Of a stretch of 64,000 nt of DNA, positions 15,030-22,725 are shown in pieces; the stretch's first letter is position 1; every line of letters starts with the position of its first letter. The notes under the pieces are model-generated. The model did not search any database. It saw nothing but the letters and a program-made list of their open reading frames with translations, and was not told where the DNA came from. This DNA is from Bacteroidales bacterium. GTDB taxonomy: Bacteria; Bacteroidota; Bacteroidia; Bacteroidales; UBA1715. Location of the stretch: contig JAITUU010000037.1 of assembly GCA_031286165.1 (NCBI GenBank), forward strand, positions 1-64,000. Reading direction: 5' to 3'. A program made the translations under genes and the position numbers.

Positions 15030-17597
15030 TTATTTCACCATTTTTACGGTTGTTTTTGCGGTTTTTAGCACATACACGCCTTTGGGCAATGCTGCTGTTT
15101 CTATACGATTTTCTCCGATATGCACCTGAGTTTTCAGCACTACTGCACCCAAAGCGTTGGTAATTGTTGCCACACCTGTTTCGCTACTATTCACCACTAT
15201 GTAGTCTGCAAACGGATTTGGATATGCCGCAATAATTTCTGTTGAAAGCGTTTCAATTGCAGTAGGGTTTGGGTCGGTTTGTTTTTCTTTCAATCGAATT
15301 GCAATGTCGGGCAATGCGCCAAAGTACGCAGTGCGCAGACCAACGTTCGTTTGTGTGGGTGTGCGATGCGTACCATAAGGACTACCGTTGCCGGTTGTTT
15401 TAATCACACCCTTGTTCAGCACAAATTCGTCTGCCGAAAAATCTGCCGGAATGGTGATTTTATATTCCTGCGCTTTGCTCGCAAAAGTGTATTGATTTGC
15501 ACCAATAAGCGCAAACTCGGCTTCGCCACCATTAGCATATTGTATGCCGGCACTCATGTTGTAAATTCCTGCAAGTTTGTTTGCCGGGTGATAGAGCGTA
15601 TTGAATGTTACCGAAACCTCATCGCCCGGCATAATTTTCCCGTTCGGATTACTCAAATTGCTCACGGTGTAATTCACTGCTTTTGCGGTTAAAACTTGAA
15701 ATTCCGCACCGCTTGCCGAAGTGAGTTTTACAATATTGCGCCCTTCTATCAAAGGTAGGGTGTAACTTCCGTCCGCATTTTTTGAAATAGGTTCAAATCC
15801 CGTGAATGTCAATGTATTGTTAGAAATTTCCGGCGATGCCAACAATACGGAACTAACGTTTGCAGAAGGCGTAAAGGTATAATTATAAGCACTCTCGTTT
15901 TCCGCATAGTAGAACACGTCCAACTCGGCATCAACAGCAGAACCTGCCAATTTTGCACTTGCGTCTGTATTATTGTCGGCATTAATGGTCATTCCCGAAG
16001 CAATATTTGCGTCTGCGGCATCTACCGAAACCATAAACACGCCGGTATTTTCAACCCACAATGCACTCCAAAACGCGCCGCCTACCGCTTGCGGAAAATT
16101 CATGGCATCGTAGGTTACAAGCACAATCGCAGTTCCGTTGCCCACAGCAGTGAGTAATCCTTTTTCGTTCACTGTAAGCACGCTATTATCGAGATTTCCG
16201 CTTTCGTTGATTACCGTGTAATGAAAATCAGGTTCTATAAAATAATTGTTCACAATAGAATTTGTGAGTTGCCATGTGCGAAAATTTTGTAATTGATAGG
16301 TATCGTTTTTTGCAAGTTTTAAATATCCTTTTTCGTTGATATTCAACAAAATATCCGCAACATTATAACCTGCATTACTTTGCACATCGTGGTTAATTTC
16401 TTGCGGACTATGTGCATAGAGTTCTTCGTTAGTAATTTCCAAACTTGAAGCAGTAGCACTTGGCGTAAAAAGTCCTACCTGCGTTACAGCACCTTCTTTG
16501 CTCACGCGATAATTGTGCTGACCCGAAATATTGTAATAATAAGTAGTTTTTCCTTCATTCGTTTCAATGGCAACCGCCGGTTTTTCGGTAAAAGGCACAT
16601 AGTGATTGCTGCCTTTTGACCCTACAAACACGTTTGCACCTTCGGGCGCAGTAATCGCGTAGGTGTATTCTACGGGTGTTCGTTTTTCAACCTGCAATTT
16701 ATCCATGCAAAAAAACGCAGCAGTATTCATACCATAAAATCCCACATCGGAAGATGCCATAGTATAGCGCAATCCGCCAATTTCGCCAAGCGAAGATAAA
16801 TCAACCCATTCCCAATTTGGACTTTGAGTGAGCGTACCGCCTTCATTTTTTGCCAAATAATATTCCACTGTTTTTCCGCTATCGTCATAATTTTCATCTA
16901 AACCGTGAATAATCAATTTGAAATAATCGCCATCTTTATCGAGCGCACGTGCAAATCCATCGCCATGCAAATTGCCCCAATACGTCCACGCACTACTATT
17001 CACATACATTCCCACAGCGTAGTAGGTGTCATACAAAATAGTTTGCAACGAAGGCGTAGTAACAGGAACACCAAGCATACCGCCCACCCAACTCATATCG
17101 CTGATAAAACCTACCAAATACGGCACATTCGGGTCGGTAAGCACCACGCCGTTGGCATCTTTCAGCACATTCCCTTCAGCATCGGTTTGTATGCCGCCAC
17201 CTGCCATATTGCCCCATTGATTGGCAAACCAATTACTTTGTTCGGAATTATCAGCATTTTTCGACATAGTAAAACCGTCCCACGAAGCATCGGAAAGCCC
17301 CATCATATCTATCAAATCTTCGACAATTTCCTCATAACCGTTATCGGCAAGGTCTATAGCAAGTTGAAATACCGTATTTTTGTGCGAAAATGCCATGTCA
17401 TCAAACTCAATAAAGGGATATTCCTTCCAATCATACGTTTTTGTCCACACGCCGCTTGCATTGTAGTCAAAGGTTTCGGGATTTGTGGACCGGCGTAAAT
17501 TCAAAGTACGTGTATTACGTGCGTAAGTCGATTGCTGCGCAAGCATTTGACTGAGAGCACAAAAGCATAATAAAATGAGTACCGTTATTTTCTTCAT
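15030..17597 (-). CDS. DUF4465 surface protein with T9SS type A sorting domain, cobalamin-riboswitch controlled
   Basis: 855 residues. Signal peptide cut near LAQQ (residue 21). Residues ~60-310 show DUF4465 features: DYFKLIIHGLDENYD, GKTVEYYLA, WEWVDLSSLGEIGGLRY and SSDVGFYGMNTAAFFCMDKL. Ig-like modules and a Big_2-like segment follow, and the last ~75 residues are a type A T9SS sorting domain (AYPNPFADYIVV ... GVYVLKTAKTTVKMVK). The cobalamin riboswitch upstream indicates expression when B12 is scarce. DUF4465 lipoproteins of gut Bacteroides have been linked to B12 capture (BtuH-type, as I recall). This looks like a T9SS-delivered equivalent; binding is inferred, not shown. No btuB is next to it. 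Confidence 0.8.
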   Translation of the reverse strand: MKKITVLILLCFCALSQMLAQQSTYARNTRTLNLRRSTNPETFDYNASGVWTKTYDWKEYPFIEFDDMAFSHKNTVFQLAIDLADNGYEEIVEDLIDMMGLSDASWDGFTMSKNADNSEQSNWFANQWGNMAGGGIQTDAEGNVLKDANGVVLTDPNVPYLVGFISDMSWVGGMLGVPVTTPSLQTILYDTYYAVGMYVNSSAWTYWGNLHGDGFARALDKDGDYFKLIIHGLDENYDDSGKTVEYYLAKNEGGTLTQSPNWEWVDLSSLGEIGGLRYTMASSDVGFYGMNTAAFFCMDKLQVEKRTPVEYTYAITAPEGANVFVGSKGSNHYVPFTEKPAVAIETNEGKTTYYYNISGQHNYRVSKEGAVTQVGLFTPSATASSLEITNEELYAHSPQEINHDVQSNAGYNVADILLNINEKGYLKLAKNDTYQLQNFRTWQLTNSIVNNYFIEPDFHYTVINESGNLDNSVLTVNEKGLLTAVGNGTAIVLVTYDAMNFPQAVGGAFWSALWVENTGVFMVSVDAADANIASGMTINADNNTDASAKLAGSAVDAELDVFYYAENESAYNYTFTPSANVSSVLLASPEISNNTLTFTGFEPISKNADGSYTLPLIEGRNIVKLTSASGAEFQVLTAKAVNYTVSNLSNPNGKIMPGDEVSVTFNTLYHPANKLAGIYNMSAGIQYANGGEAEFALIGANQYTFASKAQEYKITIPADFSADEFVLNKGVIKTTGNGSPYGTHRTPTQTNVGLRTAYFGALPDIAIRLKEKQTDPNPTAIETLSTEIIAAYPNPFADYIVVNSSETGVATITNALGAVVLKTQVHIGENRIETAALPKGVYVLKTAKTTVKMVK

Positions 17598-17690
17598 ACG
17601 AAATCAAGTTGCGGATTTACACCGCGCCACTCCTTACATGGCATTTTTGTATTATTGTTATTTACTGTTTACAACGTGTATAAAAACATG

Positions 17691-17722
17691 AAAAGCCGTT
17701 TAAATTCCTTTTAAACAGCCTT
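17691..17722 (-). terminator. Intrinsic terminator between riboswitch and DUF4465 gene
   Basis: On the minus strand AAGGCTGTTTAAA and TTTAAACGGCTT form a long stem around a short loop, followed by TTTT. It sits about 95 nt after the aptamer and 95 nt before the start codon, so it could be the attenuator controlled by the riboswitch. Confidence 0.6.
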
Positions 17723-17816
17723 CGATACAATAAAATCGGGGGAAAATAACGCAACATTGCTCAGCAACACCTGCTCAGTTCCTCGCCGGCTCCATTCCTC
17801 GAAAGCCTCAAAACTT

Positions 17817-17999
17817 ATTTTTGGCAGGTCTTCTGACTTATTCAAGAGCCTCTTCCAACGGGTATCCGTCTTTCTCCTCCCCTTGTGGGGTGTTGGGCGG
17901 GGGCTTTGAATTTACAGCAGCGGGTCTGTTCAGGATTTTCACCTGATTCCCTTTTTCAGCACCTTATTTTCCGAAACGAAAAACGGTGCCACCAAAAAT
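17817..17999 (-). promoter_or_regulatory. Cobalamin (AdoCbl-type) riboswitch
   Basis: On the minus strand the aptamer has the class-defining core: AAGGTGCTGAAAAAGGGAA, then TCAGGTGAAAATCCTGAACA, the B12 box-like GACCCGCTGCTGTAA, and GTCAGAAGACCTGCC at the 3' side. P1 is formed by ATTTTTGG (17817-17824) with CCAAAAAT (17992-17999). It lies 219 bp upstream of the DUF4465 T9SS gene, with a terminator in between, so repression by bound cobalamin is expected. A -7-like TAATTTTG occurs just upstream at 18014-18007. Confidence 0.93.
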
Positions 18000-18051
18000 T
18001 CGAGAGCAAAATTAGAATTTATTTTTACAAATCCATGATTTTTGACATAAA

Positions 18052-18114: not shown

Positions 18115-18669
18115 TTATTTAAAATAACGGTTAAAAAGTCCCTCAAAACCTTTGCCATGACGGGCTTCGTCTTTCGCCATTTCGTGCACGGTGTCGTGTA
18201 TGGCATCTAAATTCTGCTGTTTGGCAAGTGTTGCTATGCGTTTTTTATCTTCGCAAGCACCGCTTTCAGCGTGCATACGTTTTTCGAGGTTGGTTTTGGT
18301 GTCCCACACCACTTCGCCGAGCAATTCGGCAAATTTGGCACAGTGTTCTGCCTCCTCAAAAGCATAGCGTTTGAATGCTTCGGCAATTTCGGGATAACCC
18401 TCGCGGTCGGCTTGACGGCTCATAGCCAAGTACATACCCACTTCGGTAGCCTCGCCCATAAAGTGCGCCTGCAATCCGTCTAAAATTTCCTTACTCGCTC
18501 CTTTGGCAACGCCTATAACGTGCTCATCGGCAAATTGCAAAGCACAGCCGCAGCCTTCTTGCAACTCTTTGAACTTATCCTGAGGTTGTTTACATTGCGG
18601 GCAATGTTCGGGAGCCTCATTCCCCTCGTGTACATAGCCGCATACGGCACAAATCCATTTTTTTGTCAT
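18115..18669 (-). CDS. rbr: Reverse rubrerythrin (NADH peroxidase type)
   Basis: 184 residues from ATG 18669. The domain order is rubredoxin first: C7-AVC10-GYVHEG and C23-PQC26 bind one iron. A four-helix ferritin-like di-iron domain follows, with [18 protein letters not shown] and [10 protein letters not shown] supplying Glu/His ligands. Reverse rubrerythrins reduce hydrogen peroxide in anaerobes. The gene lies 31 bp downstream of perR on the same strand, so it is most likely co-transcribed and de-repressed by peroxide. The track start at 18777 would overlap perR and is rejected. Confidence 0.92.
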
Positions 18670-19129: not shown

Positions 19130-19542
19130 TATGTATTTATTGCAAAAAAAAAAAACAATTATTATAATCGCCAAATTTTTTGAGCACTTTTTTATCTATA
19201 CCCTAAAAATTTTTTTAAACGAAGGTTGGTAAAAATGGTATTTAAAAAAAATAATACACTTATAATCAAGACATAACAATTATTTTTATGTACAGTTTCA
19301 TTTGTATGAAATTGTCTGCTCGCAAAGCATGAGATACAACATAGTGAGGTATGCCTAAATAATTAAGAAAACCACAAAAAATAAATAGCGAAATATTTGC
19401 TTTGGACTTTGCGGTTTTATATGTTTACAGTCCCCTACCGTAGAAAAAATGCGTAGTTCTTGCACAAGGTTGCAACTAAACATAGTGTGTAGCAATACAA
19501 TAGTAATATTCCTTTGAGCGTTTGAATATAAAATCATTGCGT
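19130..19542. other. AT-rich intergenic region, no gene seen
   Basis: A divergent upstream region shared by perR and the large T9SS protein gene. It holds poly-A/T tracts, a small hairpin (CAGTTTCAT...ATGAAATTG near 19292) and an inverted pair AAAACCaCAAA / TTTGcGGTTTT near 19369-19416. No ORF with coding character and no recognisable RNA gene. Confidence 0.5.
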
Positions 19543-22500
19543 ATGAAAACACGGTACTTCTTGGCTGAATTTTTTACAGTAAAAAATTGCCGCAAATTTT
19601 TACTATTCTTTTGCACCATACTTTTTGTAGGGGTGAGTGGGGTGAGTGGGCAGGTAACATTTTCCAATCCAAATAGTTGCTCTTTGGTAGGTTCGGTTGT
19701 AACTTGTGGGGCTTCTTCATATCAAGAAATTCTGCCAAGTGCATGGAATAAAGGAAGTGTCAATATAAAAGTGAATGGTACGGACGTAGCTCAATCCGGT
19801 TGGACGTACACGAATTGCACTTGGCTTAATTGGGGCGCATGTCAAATTGAAAATAATACTTCATCAGGGCAAAATCCTGTGTCATACTACGTAGTAGTGA
19901 ACCCAACGGCGAAAACAGTAGAATTTACAACTACAAAACCTGTTTGCGGCGGAGTTATTACCACAAGTAGCACTGCATTATCTAATTTTTCCACCTGCCC
20001 CACTGCTGCATCGGCATCGCAAAGTTTTACCGTGAGCGGCACGGGATTAACTGCTGCTATTACTGTTTCGGCACCACCTGCCGGATACGAAATATCTGCC
20101 AACGGTACTACTTGGAGTACAAACGCACTTACTTTCAATCAAACAAGCGGTTCTGCAAGCGGAACAGTGTATGTGCGCTTAGCAAGCGGCGGTACTGCCG
20201 GCACGAAATCGGGAAATCTTATCATTTCAAGTACAACTGCCGGAACAGCAAATCAAACCGTATCATTAAACGGCACCGTGCTTGCGGGGGCAACTATTAC
20301 TCTCAATCCCACATCGCTCACCGGACTTGGCTATTCGCTTGGAGGAAATTCTACTGCGAAAACGGTGGCAGTAACCGCATCGTGCCTCACAGGGAACGTA
20401 AGTATAGCAGCACCGGCAGATTTTGAAGTTTCCACAAATGGTACTACATGGGGAAACTCCACCACACTTACCTCCGCCGGCGGCACGCTGTATGTGCGCC
20501 TCAAAAGCGGACTTGCGCAAGGAACATATAGTGGAAATGTAACGGTGGCAAGTACCGGAGTAAGCACGAAAAATATAGCGGTGAGCGGCGATGTTACTAT
20601 TACTCCGCGCGATTTTTACTACACCGGCACCGGCGATTGGAACAATCCTGCAAATTGGTATAAAAGTTGCGGAAATACCGGAGCTGCCAATAAATGGAAT
20701 GCGGTGCCAAATGCGTGGGACAATGTGGTGCTTTGCGGCGGCTCCGATGTAACAATTTCTTCTACTACGAGTGTTACTCGCACAGGAAATTTCCTCATTG
20801 CCGGCAATGGCAATAGTGCTACACAAAATACCAATCCTGCAAAACTCAAAGTTATCGGCGAATTGCATTTGCCCAATGGGTTCAATATGAAAACAGGGCA
20901 ATTAACCATTGACCCTACGGGATTACTTGATGTTACAGGGATTTTTACTTTTAAAACAGCCGACAATGCCGATTGGGGCAACCAACAACCGGTAATTATA
21001 GATAATAAAGGAACTATCGAACTTGCCAATGGCAGTTTTACTATGAATAAAAACACCAATAGTGCCGATAATACTAATATGGGCGCGTATTTCAGTAATT
21101 CGGGAAATTTCAATATTAGCAACTCCGATTTTGAAATTAAAGACGGTCCGGGAGTATTCTTTTACAACGAAAATCAAGGAATTGTTCACATAAACAATCC
21201 TGTGGGCAACACCAAAAAAGTAACCATAACAGGATTGATAGGAATTGATGAAAATTGCACTTCTACCGTTTCCGACTATTATTGCAATGGAACACTCGAC
21301 CCTCACACAACACCCTGTATGGATAAATCTCCTACAAATGACAATGTAAAAGAACACATGATTGCGCAACTTGACATTCCCTACGTTCCTTGGAATGGAG
21401 GCAATGACAATAAAATACTCGAAGGCACACATTCTCGCATATTTTTCAATGCAGGCAGTCAATTTATAGTGGAAAATACAAACGTGGAACTTACTACCGA
21501 AGGTTCTTCGCGCACCAATACCATTGCAGGAAAAATATTTGTACGCGATGCTAATTTACGATTATATTCATCGCAAGGAGGACTTCGTTTTAAAGTAAAA
21601 ACGGGCGGTGGAATTTATGTGCACTCCCCCAACAATATTTCTGACATGGGACGTTTACTCATAGACGGTAACGGCGGAGGTAGTCAAGTATGGGTGGAAG
21701 AAGGCGGACAAGTGTTTTCTCGTGGTTTTGAAGGCGATAGCAAAGGCAGCGGCTGTCATGCCATGAATATAGAAGAGGGCGGACATGGATTTATTGGCGA
21801 TATAGCCGCTACTGCAACCGACCAATTTAAAATACACGTACTTGATGGCGGTACGCTGTACTATTGCGGAAACAAAGAACACCCTATGGGCGACCAAATA
21901 GGGTTTATATTCGATGGCGGTAAGTTACACTATGCCAACGATTTTTATGCCGCACACCCAAGCCAAGCCACCGGCGAAGATAATCCTCTTATGCACATAG
22001 GAAGTTGCGACGGCGCAACTATTAATCCGGAATTACACGCAGCAGGAATACACACCTGTCAAGATTTTTACTTACTCGGTGGCGCACAAGCACAGCAAGT
22101 CCTTCAAATTCAATGGAGCACTACCGAAGCCTGTCAAGCCGATTTCGATAAATCGGTAACGGTGGGCAATATAACCTTCTTACCGGTGGAACTCACAATC
22201 TTTACCGCCGAACGCACCGGTACACACGTGAACCTTGCATGGACTACCCAAAGCGAAACCGATAACGATTACTTTACCGTACAACGTTCTTCAGACGGTG
22301 TAAGTTTTCACAACGTGGGCGAAGTTACCGGTGCCGGCACCACTTCCACCGCGCAACATTATACGTTTATAGACAATGCCCCGCTTGCAGGCGTGTCGTA
22401 CTATCGCTTGCGCCAAACTGATTTCAATGGCAAATCACACTATTCTGCCGTAGTACCTGTATTGTTCTATGCGGCACACACATCGTTTGAAATTCGTTAT

Positions 22501-22725
22501 ACTACTCTCTACGGCATTACTCGTTTTGAATGTTCTTTTGCCGATGCTGCACACAGCAATACGGTGAGCATACATTCCGTAACCGGCAAATTGCTCTACG
22601 AAACAACCGTAAAAGCAGGCGATCCCGATTATGCGGTGGAACTAACTCTTCCTGCGGGCGTGTATTTGGTAAGCAACATAAGCAATGGCATAAAAACGGT
22701 GCGCAAAGTATTGCTTTCGCACTAA
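19543..22725 (+). CDS. Large secreted T9SS type A sorting-domain protein
   Basis: 1060 residues from ATG 19543 (the track uses TTG 19522). Signal peptide ends near GVSGQ (~35). Two ~85-residue Ig-like repeats sit around 130-370, each with a xYEISxNGTTW or FEVSTNGTTW core and a GTVYVRL/GTLYVRLKSG strand. Then comes DFYYTGTGDWNNPANWY, a segment common in Bacteroidota surface proteins with beta-helix-like passengers (residues ~380-880, rich in Asn, Gly and short strands). The C-terminal ~190 residues contain a fibronectin-like module (LTIFTAERTGTHVNLAWTT) and a type A sorting domain ending VYLVSNISNGIKTVRKVLLSH-type. Likely an adhesin or matrix protein; function not known. Confidence 0.8.
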   Translation: MKTRYFLAEFFTVKNCRKFLLFFCTILFVGVSGVSGQVTFSNPNSCSLVGSVVTCGASSYQEILPSAWNKGSVNIKVNGTDVAQSGWTYTNCTWLNWGACQIENNTSSGQNPVSYYVVVNPTAKTVEFTTTKPVCGGVITTSSTALSNFSTCPTAASASQSFTVSGTGLTAAITVSAPPAGYEISANGTTWSTNALTFNQTSGSASGTVYVRLASGGTAGTKSGNLIISSTTAGTANQTVSLNGTVLAGATITLNPTSLTGLGYSLGGNSTAKTVAVTASCLTGNVSIAAPADFEVSTNGTTWGNSTTLTSAGGTLYVRLKSGLAQGTYSGNVTVASTGVSTKNIAVSGDVTITPRDFYYTGTGDWNNPANWYKSCGNTGAANKWNAVPNAWDNVVLCGGSDVTISSTTSVTRTGNFLIAGNGNSATQNTNPAKLKVIGELHLPNGFNMKTGQLTIDPTGLLDVTGIFTFKTADNADWGNQQPVIIDNKGTIELANGSFTMNKNTNSADNTNMGAYFSNSGNFNISNSDFEIKDGPGVFFYNENQGIVHINNPVGNTKKVTITGLIGIDENCTSTVSDYYCNGTLDPHTTPCMDKSPTNDNVKEHMIAQLDIPYVPWNGGNDNKILEGTHSRIFFNAGSQFIVENTNVELTTEGSSRTNTIAGKIFVRDANLRLYSSQGGLRFKVKTGGGIYVHSPNNISDMGRLLIDGNGGGSQVWVEEGGQVFSRGFEGDSKGSGCHAMNIEEGGHGFIGDIAATATDQFKIHVLDGGTLYYCGNKEHPMGDQIGFIFDGGKLHYANDFYAAHPSQATGEDNPLMHIGSCDGATINPELHAAGIHTCQDFYLLGGAQAQQVLQIQWSTTEACQADFDKSVTVGNITFLPVELTIFTAERTGTHVNLAWTTQSETDNDYFTVQRSSDGVSFHNVGEVTGAGTTSTAQHYTFIDNAPLAGVSYYRLRQTDFNGKSHYSAVVPVLFYAAHTSFEIRYTTLYGITRFECSFADAAHSNTVSIHSVTGKLLYETTVKAGDPDYAVELTLPAGVYLVSNISNGIKTVRKVLLSH

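Follow-up and report, generated by a model that had tools for sequence, protein, structure and literature searches.

A cobalamin riboswitch lies upstream of a gene for a large exported protein in the window (the whole 64-kb stretch of Bacteroidales DNA that was analyzed), which raises the question of whether this product is a B12-capture protein, how it would reach the outside of the cell, and what its unusual parts might do.

Riboswitch and transcription unit

The first-pass annotation had described a cobalamin aptamer at this locus and proposed a covariance-model search as a check. The search (cmscan) bore this out, with the full RF00174 model (1–189) matched at 86.5 bits against a gathering score of 31.5 (E = 6e-20) at positions 18011–17806 of the minus strand, the single Rfam match within the window; the B12 box, AAGTCAGAAGACCTGCC, lies at 17823–17839. 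The span annotated earlier ran from the ORF stop codon to 17999, and the 5′ end of the aptamer lies 12 nt beyond it. The aptamer core, L4, L5 and the B12 box are intact, and the score falls inside the range of the relatives' aptamers (58.6–132.2 bits). The P6 extension (17840–17917, minus strand) lacks both the CACTG and the GGGAAGG box, the sole double loss among the 78 aptamers compared (0/77 others); CACTG alone is missing in four of those 77 and GGGAAGG alone in three. The class I signature, a P6 extension with both boxes as conserved in the compared relatives, is thus absent, and its place is taken by a G/C-rich substitute in which a 10-bp P7-like stem closes the arm. An origin of the P6 arm as a dispersed repeat was ruled out, the arm being single copy. 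Because functional B12 riboswitches without the P8–P12 extension exist and respond to B12 (PMC11260477), this aptamer may have an altered ligand preference.

The 3′ end of the aptamer is followed after 208 nt by the ATG (17597) of an 855-aa ORF (17597–15030, minus strand), and the co-directional neighbor upstream is a rubrerythrin gene that ends at 18115. The ORF had been described as the only gene behind the aptamer; it is indeed the first, but a YgbA_NO family gene (14886–14557) starts 143 nt downstream of it on the same strand, and since no terminator-like site was found between the two, read-through into this second gene may occur. No Bacteroidota −33/−7 promoter pair of strict consensus was found at the locus. 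Farther upstream of the riboswitch unit, past the rubrerythrin and Fur-family genes, the window also encodes a large exported protein of 1067 aa (19522–22725, plus strand), whose weak match to the T9SS tail (19.9 bits) does not reach the cut-off.

A terminator-like hairpin of doubtful function is positioned between the aptamer and the start codon (17723–17691, minus strand), 82 nt past the aptamer and not the 95 nt given earlier; only three of its 14 pairs are G-C. Such a site appears in 2.5% of shuffled versions of this leader and in 0/52 of the relatives' leaders (0.5 expected), and on the latter count we rejected the idea that these leaders have a terminator in common as a means of control. 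Transcription termination has been proposed in the literature for Bacteroides thetaiotaomicron; the sequence evidence for transcriptional control of the 855-aa gene, which the first-pass annotation had read from this hairpin, is weak. Right before the start codon (about 17600–17625, minus strand), a small hairpin, GCGGTGTAAATCCGC, resembles the aptamer P4/L4 element GGTGAAAATCC, a likeness that may be due to chance.

The DUF4465 domain and its ligand pocket

The 855-aa protein begins with a signal peptide of about 20 aa (MKKITVLILLCFCALSQMLA-QQ; 17538–17597, minus strand), read by eye and lacking a lipobox-type cleavage site. The DUF4465 domain spans aa 105–300 (16698–17285, minus strand) and matches PF14717 at 95 bits, against a curated cut-off of 25, in agreement with the domain call made earlier. 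B12 capture by this family, which the first-pass annotation had treated as partly established, is now well established: BtuJ1 and BtuJ2 bind cobalamin very tightly (PMC12751083), six further divergent members have been shown to bind B12, and DUF4465 genes are linked to transporters (PMC13398666).

Comparison of a predicted DUF4465 structure with B12-binding proteins had been suggested as a further check, and its outcome supports the assignment. The AlphaFold2 model of aa 21–306, built on a 56-sequence alignment, has a pLDDT of 89.1 and adopts an augmented jelly-roll fold that matches B12-bound structures. All nine of its best PDB matches are DUF4465 structures, representing six entries of which four contain bound B12, and the top match is the B12-bound structure 9HMU (E = 4e-14, TM 0.70 on the target). 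The model superimposes on these DUF4465 structures with a fairly high rmsd (3.9–6.9 Å) and at 16–27% sequence identity.

BtuJ1 residue numbering was obtained from a HMMER alignment and carried over via our own alignment of the family. Several pocket residues of BtuJ1 are retained, with Trp78 corresponding to Trp106, Asn241 to Asn291, and Thr242 to Thr292, and Asn143 is replaced by Ser201. The three tyrosines that form the BtuJ1 halo, Tyr97, Tyr146 and Tyr245, align with Phe124 (or Trp123), Trp204 and Phe295, respectively; three hydroxyl contacts are therefore predicted to be missing, and the pocket lining would have preserved its aromatic character. The hallmark tyrosine of the HI loop (NTPxY) is kept in 97% of homologues (PMC13398666), so it is typical of, but not required for, membership in the Pfam family; in the present domain the loop reads NTAAFF (aa 291–296; 16710–16727, minus strand), with the Asn and Thr kept and the hallmark position occupied by Phe295. 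Among 113 aligned members, Phe is found at the Tyr245 position in nine and Trp at the Tyr146 position in 24. Judged from the alignment and the model together, B12 binding by this DUF4465 copy is likely, though not assured.

A fused module of about 480 residues

Between the DUF4465 domain and the C-terminal tail lies an uncharacterized, mostly-β module (aa 303–796; 15210–16691, minus strand), in which no Pfam family scored over its cut-off. A profile of the module, searched across 393 genomes, found strong relatives in four others only, designated G078, G144, G239 and G385, where the module is part of exported proteins encoded mostly in B12-related loci. G144 is the sole relative to have the same DUF4465-module fusion (1051 aa, 51% identity over aa 301–855). 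In G078 the module is a separate gene right after the DUF4465 gene, within a riboswitch-btuB operon, while in G385 and G239 it occurs in proteins without DUF4465: one G385 copy follows riboswitch-btuB-btuG, the other lies behind a cobalamin riboswitch, and the G239 gene, whose product differs in its N-terminal part, has a riboswitch upstream. Five of the six module loci thus lie behind cobalamin riboswitches. The sixth, in G144, is on a 5-kb contig without a riboswitch, where the DUF4465 gene adjoins a T9SS-tailed homologue of PDB entries 8BLW and 7BIZ, which we take to be BtuG/BtuH-type B12 surface proteins.

Structure prediction was of little help for this region. The AlphaFold2 model of the module is poor (pLDDT 64.5, five sequences) and too weak for a fold call, Foldseek returned only uninformative chains of Ig domains, none with a TM score above about 0.2, and a convincing sequence relative was not found in the PDB. 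The module could be a stalk of Ig-like domains, the dull alternative, or a further B12-handling unit. We tentatively propose that it is an unrecognized component of cobamide acquisition that may contact the corrinoid, BtuG or BtuB, a suggestion that we consider possible but less probable than not.

T9SS export and distribution within the order

The C-terminal residues 792–855 (15033–15224, minus strand) match both type A T9SS sorting-domain models above cut-off (PF18962, 33.4 bits against 27; TIGR04183, 33 bits against 23), as the earlier annotation had recognized, so that the protein combines a signal peptide with the tail of a T9SS type A cargo. The same genome encodes SprA (2246.7 bits) and PorV (478 bits), so the T9SS translocon is present. 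Delivery by the T9SS instead of by lipidation represents a known class, since 229 of 824 non-redundant DUF4465 members carry the type A domain IPR026444 (PMC12751083).

We surveyed 247 genomes of the same order, the type of census of riboswitch-linked T9SS cargo that had been recommended. DUF4465 was found in 102 genomes; 111 DUF4465 loci were taken and scanned one by one with Rfam, the genome-wide Rfam listing containing best matches only, and 102 ORFs were complete at both ends. An aptamer no more than 350 nt upstream together with a T9SS-like tail was found for 33 of these 102 complete ORFs, with a TIGR04183 match in 33/33, and the arrangement is therefore common in the order. Another 22 complete ORFs have a near aptamer and no T9SS tail, and 17 of these show a lipobox-like pattern (by regular expression only). 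At least 19 of the 33 riboswitch-linked, tailed loci have btuB within 4 kb downstream, a lower bound given contig ends and the 4-kb limit, and detachment from btuB appears, with that bound in mind, to be the less usual part of the arrangement seen here. T9SS-tailed B12 capture under riboswitch control is hence widespread in the order and partly published, and is not a local oddity. The idea that capture here uses a T9SS cargo stands on the riboswitch, the DUF4465 domain and the tail, with a B12 binder the most likely product, but the idea is not new. What is new at this locus is the fusion of DUF4465 to the approximately 480-aa module, the Phe/Trp residues at the halo positions and the double box loss in the P6 extension.

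B12 uptake genes elsewhere in the genome and in relatives

The genome contains three cobalamin riboswitches. The second precedes genes for a btuB-like TonB receptor and a DUF5074/BtuG protein at a separate locus, so that the reported lack of a BtuB neighbor is true locally but does not extend to the genome; the best NCBIfam match of this receptor is the B12 receptor model TIGR01779 (E = 2e-27, below the curated cut-off). The third precedes the anaerobic ribonucleotide reductase gene nrdD (L006:8008–10095), and a cobalamin riboswitch is found before nrdD also in G248, a genome of the same family (L158:10506–12650). These other two aptamers of the genome are unusually long (L005:9991–10264, 274 nt; L006:10220–10510, 291 nt), their peripheral arms being enlarged by apparent inverted repeats of AATTACGAATT-like sequence. 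The genome encodes one FecCD permease, which resembles BtuC most, together with an ABC ATPase closest to corrinoid ATPases, each below the curated equivalog cut-off. This only BtuCD-like transporter (L168:4139–7600) is a divergent neighbor of the T9SS gene porV and has no cobalamin riboswitch. Two proteins with B12-binding domains are also encoded, which from their size and sequence we read as methylmalonyl-CoA mutase and methionine synthase.

The closest DUF4465 relatives sit in operons of the form riboswitch-btuB-btuG(DUF5074)-...-DUF4465, and close relatives that share the Trp at the Tyr146 position lie in B12 uptake operons. In G248, the arrangement riboswitch-200aa-289aa(T9SS)-DUF4465-btuB-btuG-cobO comes immediately after the nrdD riboswitch unit, and part of the nrdD neighborhood is common to G248 and the present genome. 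This layout fits a history in which an ancestral operon would have been split here and a riboswitch retained or acquired by each of the parts. Another candidate B12 accessory protein, small, exported and with a DITYWVGEGTNKAALVI-like start, is found in more than one B12-riboswitch locus (L158:8726–9595 and L179:11896–12765); the L158 copy has a PF18962 tail.

Proposed function and alternatives

The best explanation of the whole, to which we assign a probability of roughly 0.7, is that the 855-aa gene forms a transcription unit by itself within the B12 regulon and makes a T9SS-exported B12-capture protein. Plentiful intracellular corrinoid would bind the riboswitch and lower expression, and scarcity would turn the gene on, the direction known from the B. 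thetaiotaomicron btu operons, which are repressed by B12. The signal peptide would take the protein across the inner membrane and the T9SS across the outer membrane, with removal of the C-terminal tail, leaving the protein on the surface or released. The DUF4465 jelly-roll is predicted to bind B12 and other cobamides outside the cell and to pass them, directly or via BtuG, to the BtuB receptor, whose gene lies at another locus behind a separate riboswitch, after which BtuCD would finish import. Points against this explanation are that the gene adjoins no transporter gene, that the halo tyrosines and Asn143 of BtuJ1 are replaced, that the domain model superimposes rather loosely on the DUF4465 structures, and that the P6 extension of the aptamer is remodelled.

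Type A tails permit either attachment or release, and the cargo might leave the cell, free or on shed vesicles, and serve as a diffusible trap for B12 in place of an anchored surface receptor. We regard this alternative as unlikely, and the gene shows no linkage to vesicle genes. It draws support from B. thetaiotaomicron, where BtuJ on extracellular vesicles has a siderophore-like role (PMC12751083). A different proposal concerns the ligand: the domain may no longer bind cobalamin tightly, or may prefer another corrinoid or a hydrophobic ligand, with B12 control retained by descent. The replacement of all three halo tyrosines, including the uncommon Phe at the Tyr245 position, speaks for such a loss; we nonetheless hold it to be rather improbable, given the retained HI-loop Asn and Thr and pocket Trp, the preserved aromatic character, the recurrence of Trp at the Tyr146 position, including in relatives from B12 uptake operons, and the finding that shape and main-chain contacts provide much of DUF4465 binding (PMC12751083).

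The P6 arm, unique among the aptamers compared in lacking both boxes, might instead mark an aptamer that is decaying or altered, so that class I B12 control is lost and expression is either constitutive or subject to another kind of sensing. The intact core elements, the closing 10-bp stem, a score within the relatives' range and the precedent of functional riboswitches without this extension make that reading very unlikely.

Under the preferred reading of a B12-regulon capture protein, the locus represents a capture gene that lies apart from the btu operon and is served by a separate riboswitch. The recurring module becomes a well-defined new candidate for a part in B12 handling, and a pocket lined with Phe and Trp makes it possible to ask whether corrinoid binding requires the tyrosine halo. 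The observation made in the first-pass annotation is real and its outline correct, though most of what it describes belongs to a type already known; the parts worth following are the fused module and the altered pocket.

Comparison with known systems

BtuJ1 and BtuJ2 of B. thetaiotaomicron (DUF4465, IPR027828) resemble the present protein in their DUF4465 jelly-roll, their cobalamin-riboswitch loci and their role as exported B12-capture proteins. They are lipoproteins of about 250–300 aa encoded in operons with transporter genes, whereas the protein described here is an 855-aa T9SS cargo from a separate unit, with Phe/Trp in place of the BtuJ1 tyrosine halo and a fused module that BtuJ lacks. 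The published class of T9SS-tailed DUF4465 proteins shares both the domain and the type A tail; most of the surveyed members are 315–720 aa in length, and the present protein exceeds these and has no btuB neighbor. The btuB-btuG-...-DUF4465 operons of G078, G182, G193, G242 and G248, which belong to the same divergent DUF4465 subclade or, for G248, to the same family, are likewise under B12 riboswitch control; unlike in those operons, the gene here stands apart, behind a riboswitch of its own.
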